Assembly: GCA_035275405.1 (NCBI GenBank)
Contig: DATEMU010000005.1
Location: 1 to 64,000 of the forward strand
Source of the DNA: Phycisphaerae bacterium
Lineage (GTDB): Bacteria; Planctomycetota; Phycisphaerae; UBA1845; UTPLA1
DNA: 64,000 nt
Direction: 5' to 3'
The notes under the pieces are model-generated. The model did no database searches. It saw nothing but the letters and a program-made list of their open reading frames with translations, and was not told the origin of the DNA. A program made the translations under genes and the position numbers. Each line of letters opens with the position of its first letter. Position 1 is the first letter of the stretch. This document shows positions 18,340 to 23,239 of this stretch, piece by piece.

Positions 18340-19998
18340 ATGTCCGGAGATAACACGATCCGTGCGCGCTTTGCTCCCTCGCCGACGGGGTATCTGCACG
18401 TGGGCGGGGCACGGACCGCGCTGTTCAACTGGTTGTTCTGCCGGCAGCATGGCGGGCGATTTATCCTGCGCATCGAGGATACGGACATCCTGCGTAACAT
18501 CGAGGGGGCCGAGCAGAAGCTGATCGACGATTTGCGGTGGCTCGGAATCGATTATGACGAGGGACCGGACATCGGTGGGCCGCTGGGACCGTATCGGCAG
18601 AGTGAGCGGCGGGATTTGTACGACGCCGCGGCAAAGAAACTGCTGGCCTCCGGCGATGCCTACTATGCCTTCGACACAGCGGAGGAGTTGGAGGCGATGC
18701 GCCGGGAGGCGACGGCGCTGAAGCAGTCGTTCAAGTATCCACGGCCGAAGGTGTTGCCTACCGAGGCGGACGCGGCGCGGGCGCGGTCCGAGGGCCGGCC
18801 CGTTGTCATCCGTTTCAAGACGCCCCTTGAGCCCATCACCGTCCACGATGAAATCCTCGGCGACGTGACTTTTGCCGCGGGGGAAATCGAAGACCTCGTC
18901 ATCGTGAAATCCAACGGGTGGCCGACGTATCACTTCGCGGTCGTGGTGGATGACGCGGCGATGCAGATCACGCACGTTCTGCGGGCGCAGGAGCACCTGA
19001 TGAACACGCCCAAACACGTGTTCATGCAGCGAGCCCTCGGCTACGCGCCGCCGCGTTACGCGCATCTGCCGCTCGTGTTCAACATCGACGGGACGAAGAT
19101 GTCCAAGCGTGACAAGCACAAGGTTGTACGAACGGCGACGAAGAACCTGATCAAACAGGGCAAATGGACGGCGGACGACGTGGCGCGGATCGCTGAATGC
19201 AAAGCAGCGGCGGCGACAGCGTGGCTCGACAAGGCCGAGACCGAATTGGACATGACGCAGGTCGGGCGGCTCGCGACGGCTGCCGGAGTCGAAATTCCTG
19301 AGATTGACGTCCACGATTTCCGCGCGAGTGGTTATCTACCTGAGGCGCTGGCGAACTTCGTCGCCCTGATCGGCTGGTCGCCCGGCGGCGATCGCGAAAT
19401 GCTCACGCGCGAGGAGATGACCGCCGAGTTCAGCCTCGACCGGATCAATAAAACAGCGGGCCGGTTCGATCGCGAGAAGCTCCTGGCGATGAATACGGTC
19501 TATTGCGCGGAGGCGGCGCCGGAGCGGCTGTTGGCGGGCTTTCGCGATTACGCGCAAGCGGGCGGATCGCCGCTCGCGTCGCTCGACGACAAGACGCTTG
19601 CCGACGTGCTCCGCGTGTGCAAGGGCTTCCGCACGTTTCACGATATCGACCTTAAGGTCGGCATCCTCTTCGCCCCGGACGAGTCCGTGCAATACGACCC
19701 CAAGGCAGTCAAGGACGTGCTGGAGAAGAAAGAAGGCGCGGGCTACGCGATGTTGGAACGCCTGCTGCCACCGCTCGAATCGTTGGAGCCATGGACCGCT
19801 GAGCGGATCGACGCGCTGGTCAAGGAGATCTGCGAACAAACCGGCGCGAAGACCAACGACGTCGCCCAACCCCTCCGTGTCGCCCTGACCGGCCGAACGA
19901 TCAGCCCGGCGATCGGGGAGACGCTGGCGCTGCTCAGCAAGGAGCGAACGCTGCGGCGAATTCGGCGTTGCCTGGAAACCCGAAACCCATCGCAATAG
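18340..19998 (+). CDS. gltX: Glutamyl-tRNA synthetase
   Basis: It charges tRNA-Glu with glutamate. The 552-residue class I synthetase shows the HIGH equivalent in APSPTGYLHVGGARTA (residues of about 11-26), KMSKRD (about residue 249), FNWLF and RIEDTD. An extra stretch after KMSKRD (KHKVVRTATKNLIKQGKW and following) lies before the usual GYLPEALANFVALIGWSP, so this enzyme has an insertion relative to typical GltX. The C-terminal helical anticodon-binding part is present. A separate glnS lies 1.5 kb downstream, so a strict Glu-specific role is expected. Confidence 0.95.
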   Translation: MSGDNTIRARFAPSPTGYLHVGGARTALFNWLFCRQHGGRFILRIEDTDILRNIEGAEQKLIDDLRWLGIDYDEGPDIGGPLGPYRQSERRDLYDAAAKKLLASGDAYYAFDTAEELEAMRREATALKQSFKYPRPKVLPTEADAARARSEGRPVVIRFKTPLEPITVHDEILGDVTFAAGEIEDLVIVKSNGWPTYHFAVVVDDAAMQITHVLRAQEHLMNTPKHVFMQRALGYAPPRYAHLPLVFNIDGTKMSKRDKHKVVRTATKNLIKQGKWTADDVARIAECKAAAATAWLDKAETELDMTQVGRLATAAGVEIPEIDVHDFRASGYLPEALANFVALIGWSPGGDREMLTREEMTAEFSLDRINKTAGRFDREKLLAMNTVYCAEAAPERLLAGFRDYAQAGGSPLASLDDKTLADVLRVCKGFRTFHDIDLKVGILFAPDESVQYDPKAVKDVLEKKEGAGYAMLERLLPPLESLEPWTAERIDALVKEICEQTGAKTNDVAQPLRVALTGRTISPAIGETLALLSKERTLRRIRRCLETRNPSQ

Positions 19999-20012: not shown

Positions 20013-20693
20013 ATGGCGAAACGCACGATCACACTTTCGTTTGTCCTGGCGTTGACCTTGATTTTGGGTTGCAAGCGCGAAGATCCGATGGCGATGTTCG
20101 TCAAGAAGATGGACAGCGCCCCGGCCTCCGAGCGCCCGCCGAATTGGGAGGAAGTCAAGCAGCTGATGGCCCGGCCCGCGCCGATCGTCGGCGCGGTCGC
20201 GCCCGACTTCAGCTTGCCGAGCGTCGACGGCAATCAGTCGCTCACAATGAGCCGGCATCGCGGCGAGCACCCGCTGGTGCTGATCTTCGGCAGCTTCACC
20301 TGACCGCCCTTCCGGCGCCAGTCTGGCGCCCTCGAGAAAATGTACCAAAGCTATCGCGACCGCGCCGCGTTCCTCTTCGTGTATGTCCGCGAGGCGCACC
20401 CGACAGACGAATGGCGGATGCCGGTCAATGAAGAGGAGGGCGTCCTGTTCGCGCAGCCGAAGACGCTCGAGGCGCGTCATGATGTGGCCCGGCAGTGCTG
20501 CAACAAGCTCTCACTCACAATGCCGACGGTCGTCGATTCGATCGATAACCGGGTGGACGGATTGTACGCCGCCTGGCCGGAGCGAATCTTCATCGTCGAT
20601 CGCGAAGGCCGCATCGCCTACGCCGGCGGTCAAGGGCCGTTCGGCTTCAAACCCGCCGAGGCCGAGGCGTGGTTGAAGAAGAATCTACGATGA
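20013..20693 (+). CDS. Iodothyronine-deiodinase-like selenoprotein (lipoprotein), Sec encoded by TGA at 20301
   Basis: Two adjacent frames, 20013-20303 and 20340-20693, are in phase; the intervening codons are open except for one TGA at 20301-20303. Read through it, the product is 226 residues with selenocysteine at position 97. The context is LVLIFGSFT-U-PPFRR, matching the deiodinase active site (FGSCT-U-PPF or PSF in vertebrates), and the following FVYVREAHPTDEW matches the deiodinase YIEEAHxxDGW block, with the conserved His. Further matches are VVDSIDN, PERIFIVDREG and GPFGF before the C-terminus. The fold is thioredoxin-like. The N-terminus has a lipobox (LTLILGC), so the protein is anchored outside the inner membrane. 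The vertebrate Cys two residues before Sec is Phe here. A SECIS-like hairpin lies directly after the TGA. Substrate unknown: it may be a reductive dehalogenase or a peroxide/thiol enzyme. Homology is clear; Sec use is inferred. Confidence 0.85.
20301..20330 (+). promoter_or_regulatory. Candidate bacterial SECIS element
   Basis: The TGA at 20301 is followed, 10 nt later, by a 7-bp perfect stem (GGCGCCA at 20314-20320 with TGGCGCC at 20324-20330) and a three-base loop GTC. The loop lies 17 nt after the UGA, within the spacing used by bacterial SECIS elements, and it begins with the GU that SelB usually requires. It lies inside coding sequence, as bacterial SECIS elements do. A very short loop is the main weakness. 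Confidence 0.65.
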
Positions 20694-20726
20694 TGACGGC
20701 TCTACCGATTGGCCGAGGCCCGCCGA

Positions 20727-21452
20727 ATGATCCTCAAATGTCTGTCGATCGCGCTGCTGTTCATTCTTGCGCTGTTCAGCGCGGGTTGCATCATTCCCGT
20801 CCCTATCGCCGTGCTTCCGGTTCGCGGCATCGGTAGCGGCGATACAATTGAATTCCGCGACAAGCAGTCAGAAAAACTAAAATGCTCGGGGTGGGCGATT
20901 GTCTGCCGATCCAAGGCATGGGACTGGCATGGTTTTTCAACAGACGAAGTCTCTTGCCGACTTGTCCATGTGGCCAATGGAAAGGCCACTTTGCCGGAAG
21001 AGTGGAATCTTTCGATCTTGTGGCTTGTTCCGAACGAGATTGCTTGGGGATACGGCCTCGCCGCGTTAGGGAGCAATCCACTGTACACACTTGCGGCAGT
21101 ACCGTTTTGGGTCATACCTCTCCCCATAGTCGTTCCACTCGAACAGGTGCGCATCATTCCCCTGATTTCGGGCTATTATCCTCCTTCAGAGGTCGCGTCG
21201 TTTCATGTCTATCGTCAACGATTTGCGCTCGGTTCGGAATCAAATCGGAATGTCTGTTACCTATCCCCCAACCGTCCCGTCGTGGCTACCCAATATTGGA
21301 GGAAGCTAGAGAGAATTCTGAATTCCCCACGCAACCCTTGGGGAATTGAAGGCCAAGATTGGATATTCCTTGAGCCTCGCGAACGCGAACTTGCCCGAGC
21401 AATTATCGATGGCGAGCTTCGGCACTTGGTCCCGCAGCGCTATGATCGTTGA
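20727..21452 (+). CDS. Putative lipoprotein of unknown function
   Basis: From ATG 20727 the product is about 241 residues (a TTG at 20709 in frame is less likely). The N-terminus is a signal helix ending in LFSAGC, a good lipobox. The mature part has Trp-rich and hydrophobic stretches ([34 protein letters not shown]) and a polar C-terminus. The base composition is less GC-rich than its neighbours, which may mean recent acquisition. It begins 34 bp after the selenoprotein gene, so the two are probably cotranscribed. No family is recognised. Confidence 0.65.
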
Positions 21453-21523
21453 GTAGCTGCTCTTTGACGTGCATTCCTCTCTTCGCCTCCTTATCATGTC
21501 TGCCTCATAGGCGAGGACATGAC

Positions 21524-23235
<1,712 letters not shown>

Positions 23236-23239
<4 letters not shown>

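Follow-up and report, generated by a model that had tools for sequence, protein, structure and literature searches.

The gene at positions 20013–20693 (forward strand) of the window, by which we mean the whole stretch of 64,000 nucleotides that was analysed, encodes a member of the deiodinase family (PF00837) in which a single in-frame TGA is, with near certainty, decoded as selenocysteine (Sec). This planctomycete gene is real and intact. Its translation, its match to PF00837, its AlphaFold2 model and the fold matches to Dio2 and Dio3 mark it as deiodinase-like, and the protein is almost certainly a Sec-decoded deiodinase-family member. The fuller description, that of an exported, probably lipid-anchored PF00837 selenoprotein that acquires Sec by means of a SECIS hairpin and possesses a deiodinase-type active site, is very likely correct. 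The gene is an added member of a known bacterial selenoprotein family, real and well supported.

Gene and reading frame

Translation of 20013–20693 with TGA read as U yields a single frame of 226 residues, with U at residue 97 (20301–20303), equivalent to Sec130 of mouse Dio2 and Sec170 of Dio3. The sequence ends in a tandem stop, TGA TGA (20691–20696, forward strand), the first triplet of which (20691–20693) is the gene's own stop. The original prediction described the frame accurately. It is in phase across one TGA at the deiodinase Sec position (FGSFT-U-PPF), each of the proposed motifs (FGSFTUPPF, FVYVREAHPTDEW, VVDSIDN and GPFGF) is found in the translation, and the residue two before Sec is indeed Phe (Phe95). 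It was also claimed that there is no decay after the TGA. This holds because identity, conservation by codon position and GC all stay coding-like beyond it: when the gene is aligned with eight close relatives, amino-acid identity stands at 53% over the 40 codons preceding the TGA and at 62% beyond it, conservation downstream is 0.74, 0.76 and 0.48 for codon positions 1, 2 and 3, and GC by codon position is coding-like on both sides. The third position being the least conserved after the TGA, the downstream half is under selection at the protein level.

A gene of the glutamyl-tRNA synthetase type (18340–19998) lies 14 bases upstream. This gene and a second one (21449–23239), both of the class I Glu/Gln type, stand on either side of the selenoprotein gene and share its strand, and between the selenoprotein gene and the second synthetase gene there is one unassigned ORF only, at about 20709–21452. 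When the neighbourhoods of about 80 loci were compared, the PPF-type group showed no conserved gene partner other than through taxon-specific synteny; the largest neighbourhood clusters come from the GPF group, and many of them look like shadow frames. Since no functional partner is conserved, the context gives no substrate.

Probable export and membrane attachment

The N-terminus, MAKRTITLSFVLALTLILGC, resembles a lipoprotein signal on inspection. The putative signal sequence, MAKRTITLSFVLALTLILG-C (20013–20072, forward strand), ends in a lipobox-like ILGC, with LILGC at residues 16–20 and Cys20 (20070–20072) as the candidate lipidated residue. Lipobox-like cysteines also occur in close relatives (ALGC in L042, VSGC in L044, ISGC in L045, TGAC in L041 and FGGC in L022), and other family members have an N-terminal hydrophobic segment in place of a lipobox. 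With such N-termini in the family, tethering outside the cytoplasm is likely, and export and membrane attachment of the window protein itself can be considered probable from its sequence. In the versions from Acidobacteria gp2 (L090, L096, L100, L107–L110 and L116) there is one hydrophobic N-terminal segment and no lipobox; this segment resembles the N-terminal anchor of vertebrate deiodinases.

Fold and family

The PF00837 (T4_deiodinase) match spans the TGA, covering residues 59–224 with an E-value of 4e-35 and 121.6 bits against a cut-off of 27. A structural model was predicted with AlphaFold2 from an alignment of 41 sequences (mean pLDDT 93.2, pTM 0.86). Its best match among solved structures is mouse Dio2 (9h48; Z 23.1, 36% identity, 170 aligned residues), followed by Dio3 (4tr3; Z 22.4, 31% identity, 165 aligned residues), and then by AhpE, ResA and DsbE-like proteins with Z about 18. 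Sequence-only searches, by profile and against PDB sequences, also place the protein with Dio2 and Dio3, so that the alignment with the DIO deiodinases suggested at the outset finds the same closest structures by sequence and by fold. Computation shows the modelled product to have the deiodinase variant of the thioredoxin/peroxiredoxin fold.

The curated model NF038285 ("deiodinase family protein") shares a homologous C-terminal domain with the window protein (1.5e-68). The score of 231.8 bits is under its curated cut-off of 250, and the N-terminal 173 model positions have no counterpart in the window protein.

Active site and proposed chemistry

The deiodinase catalytic block Y124..E127-A-H129..D132..W134 is encoded at 20382–20414 (forward strand). 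In the 41 sequences, Y124, E127, H129 and D132 are invariant and W134 is nearly so, and S94 and T96 are likewise invariant or nearly invariant. In Dio2, the relay residues are Ser127, Thr129, Tyr157, Glu160 and His162, together with the loop residue Trp167 (PMC11592359); in the alignments, these correspond to S94, T96, Y124, E127, H129 and W134, respectively. Other elements of the vertebrate enzymes are missing. The second relay histidine (Dio2 His182) aligns with Pro149, and the Dio3 Arg275 clamp with Gln207. The proximal cysteine (Dio1 Cys124) is replaced by Phe95; in Dio2, too, it is absent, with Ala in its place (PMC11592359). The distal cysteine is absent, Thr172 lying two residues from the aligned position, where several close relatives have Cys. 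With the second relay histidine, the arginine clamp and both cysteines missing, iodothyronine deiodination itself is not implied. Moreover, in Dio1 it is the proximal cysteine, not the distal one, that is needed for reduction by glutathione (PMC9141512), so that recycling must differ in the window protein.

The second relay histidine is present in a sister group with KEHTTYGER-type sequences (for example L029 and L032). Three Sec deiodinase domains of the sister group, L026, L029 and L030 (genomes G004, G007 and G028), retain this histidine, which the window protein does not, and carry long C-terminal extensions; those of L026 and L029 seem to contain TPR-like repeats.

Apart from the catalytic position, the one cysteine conserved in most Sec and Cys subfamilies is at Sec+65 or Sec+66. 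In the window protein these are Cys162 and Cys163 (20496–20501, forward strand), candidate partner thiols for a selenenylsulfide, and on the basis of this conservation we propose that one of them may be the resolving thiol.

A catalytic cycle can be proposed from these elements. Cys20 would hold the mature protein at the outer face of a membrane. The Sec97 selenolate, aided by the Ser94-Thr96-Tyr124-Glu127-His129 network, would attack a small substrate, oxidised or halogenated, and remove its leaving atom (in formal terms, X+ or O), and the network would deliver a proton. The oxidised Sec might then be resolved as a selenenylsulfide with Cys162 or Cys163, to be reduced in turn by a periplasmic thiol system. 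The proximal cysteine of the deiodinases would play no part, that position being Phe95.

That the chemistry is deiodinase-like, that is, a proton-relay reductive elimination rather than peroxidase activity or disulfide exchange, is put forward tentatively, as a reading that falls somewhat short of an even chance. A serious contender, itself not quite probable, is that the protein is a Sec peroxiredoxin-like enzyme or a thiol-disulfide reductase of the AhpE/ResA kind, sharing only its ancestry with deiodinases. The AhpC-TSA family also matches the window protein (6.6e-10) and is found in all 41 family members, AhpE, a 1-Cys peroxiredoxin, is together with ResA and DsbE-like proteins the next-best fold and belongs to the same fold superfamily, ResA and Etrx2 are likewise extracytoplasmic, and a redox function was proposed in the 2005 discovery paper (PMC1088965). 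However, the deiodinases score well above these proteins in both sequence and fold, inspection reveals neither the PxxxT/SxxC signature nor a CxxC or UxxC at FGSFTUPPF, and the deiodinase set of Ser, Thr, Tyr, Glu, His and Trp is kept family-wide.

Decoding of the internal TGA

The assignment of Sec to codon 97 rests on an RNA signal, on the decoding machinery and on the behaviour of the codon among relatives. A bacterial SECIS hairpin, GGCGCCA-GUC-UGGCGCC, with a stem of 7 bp, is located at 20314–20330 (forward strand). Its apical loop, GUC (20321–20323), lies 17 nt after the UGA and has G as its first nucleotide. The minimum free energy is -13.6 kcal/mol for 20295–20350, and -12.0 kcal/mol for the SECIS stem alone. 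The published constraints for bacterial SECIS elements are given as a loop of 3–9 nt, a G in the first two loop positions, a spacing of 16–37 nt and a minimum free energy of at most -7.5 kcal/mol (PMC13188914); the hairpin agrees with all four. It is also supported by covariation. Across 15 sequences, that of the window gene and those of 14 relatives, both partners have changed in four of the seven pairs and 94.3% of cells are paired, values of pairing percentage or covariation score that were matched in none of 500 column shuffles, and RNAalifold independently predicts the same seven pairs. When synonymous codons were exchanged with the protein kept, an equally stable hairpin arose in 1.2% of trials and the seven pairs were in place in 0.4%. 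Finally, of 50 TGA forms, that of the window among them, 36 have a SECIS-like hairpin of -7.5 kcal/mol or below after the catalytic codon, as against none of the 30 Cys forms. The ribosome would thus be expected to read the UGA at 20301–20303 as selenocysteine by way of this downstream hairpin.

The genome from which the window derives (5.29 Mb, 19 contigs) contains the complete set of selA, selB, selC and selD, for which the original prediction had suggested a search. On contig C12, a selB match above its cut-off (C12:185003) is directly followed downstream by selA (C12:186949, 522.9 bits). The tRNA-Sec, with a TCA anticodon, is at C15:456054 (71 bits), on a contig other than that of the window; in the window itself, the Rfam scan gave no matches at gathering thresholds and ARAGORN gave no tRNA. 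The selD gene (C8:89261, 370.8 bits) has one in-frame TGA of its own, around which the sequence reads KLTNYASCAGUAGK. A strong tRNA-Sec is present in 12 of 12 genomes that have the TGA gene and are at least 90% complete (own genome included), and was not found in two incomplete relatives with a TGA gene, G004 and G028. This co-occurrence agrees with Sec decoding but has little power to discriminate, a strong tRNA-Sec being present in about three quarters of the relatives in any case.

Relatives were sought at two distances. Among 61 genomes (the own genome and 60 from the same family and order), 14 contain 15 matches above the cut-off, the window gene among them, and every match carries a single TGA, always at this position. 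A wider scan, of GTDB species genomes, yielded 478 confirmed relatives. The 80 that were retained are mainly from Planctomycetota, and also from Acidobacteriota, Armatimonadota, Verrucomicrobiota and Poribacteria. The catalytic codon, read at 79 loci of named genomes, is TGA in 49 and TGC or TGT in 30. The original prediction had pointed to Cys-containing homologues at position 97 as a check, and these do exist. In a tree of 90 rows, Cys forms occupy three places among mostly Sec rows, namely a large clade of Isosphaeraceae, Pirellulaceae and other planctomycetes, a pair from Opitutaceae and one acidobacterial sequence. The concern that the TGA might be a genuine stop in homologues does not stand as an objection, as it occupies the same codon in 15 of 15 matches above the cut-off, the window gene included. 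With its machinery, its Cys homologues and its Dio2/Dio3 match, the core of the original reading is supported: the protein is a selenoprotein of the deiodinase family and probably a lipoprotein.

One divergent PF00837 protein from a relative (L033, 1357–2892, genome G010; 33.5 bits) has its in-frame TGA in SCTUQPG and a deiodinase-type proximal cysteine two before Sec. The ORF is long, looks secreted and has a dockerin-like repeat at its end.

Readings in which codon 97 is something other than Sec have next to no probability. Standard gene calling would end the frame at 20303, as expected for a pseudogene or a sequencing error that joins two frames; both were rejected, since the TGA recurs at exactly the same codon in independent genomes and is replaced by Cys elsewhere, a covarying SECIS follows it, the Sec machinery is complete and conservation continues downstream. 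An in-frame TGA by itself does not identify the residue, and yet insertion of Trp or a similar amino acid, or unspecific readthrough, is scarcely credible either, and code reassignment was rejected: in the 79 loci read, the alternative to TGA is Cys and never Trp, the SECIS and the Sec machinery are both there, and TGA terminates 11 of 28 long GC3-rich open frames elsewhere in the window, where it is an ordinary stop, so that there is no general reassignment.

Relation to known deiodinase-like proteins

Selenocysteine decoding of a bacterial deiodinase-like protein is not new, which qualifies the original prediction: the family has been known since 2005 (PMC1088965, PMC2398784, PMC13188914). 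Prokaryotic deiodinase-like proteins with Sec or with Cys appear in the 2005 study of the Sargasso Sea, which suggested a redox role for them (PMC1088965). The GOS data of 2008 comprise 22 Sec and 21 Cys deiodinase-like sequences, as read from the table of that paper (PMC2398784), and current reviews list prokaryotic deiodinase-like selenoproteins (PMC13188914, PMC9312934). The window gene has in common with this family its PF00837 domain, Sec at the same kind of site, a bacterial SECIS just downstream and the existence of both Sec and Cys forms. It differs in that the published members appear in these accounts as environmental sequences, for which organism and anchoring are not given there, and in that the family motif as presented in the reviews is UxxC, whereas the window protein and every PPF-type relative read have UPPF with no Cys at +3. 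A search of the literature found no paper on the activity of bacterial deiodinase-like selenoproteins since 2005, and none on the deiodinase-like family in Planctomycetota.

With the vertebrate deiodinases 1–3 (PDB 9h48 and 4tr3; 31–36% identity over 165–170 residues, Z 22–23), the window protein shares Sec in FGS-x-T-U-PPF, the active-site set described above and, probably, N-terminal membrane attachment. It differs in the four substituted residues (Phe95, Thr172, Pro149 and Gln207), in the likely mode of attachment, through a putative lipobox instead of a transmembrane helix, and in its SECIS, which is bacterial and lies in the coding region, in contrast to the eukaryotic SECIS in the 3'-UTR of the vertebrate genes.

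Two points are under-recorded, the frequency of the Sec form among Planctomycetota and the restriction of the NCBI curated family to stop-free forms. In a sample of 294 Planctomycetota genomes, a hand count of NF038285 matches of at least 100 bits found one internal TGA in 96 of 106, so that ordinary gene calling would split most family members in two, and annotation probably often presents a Sec member wrongly as a pair of fragments. Only four matches in this sample are above the curated cut-off and all four are stop-free: the NCBI curated model passes stop-free, full-length forms only, though the TGA form is far commoner.

It could be speculated that these widespread, membrane-anchored extracytoplasmic Sec enzymes of planctomycetes reductively dehalogenate environmental halo-organics by deiodinase-type chemistry, using a resolving thiol unlike that of animals, and that they represent the bacterial background of the animal deiodinases; we consider this broad scenario unlikely. 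With a clean SECIS, the full machinery, relatives in Cys form and a confident model, the protein lends itself well to the question whether deiodinase chemistry is older than thyroid hormones.
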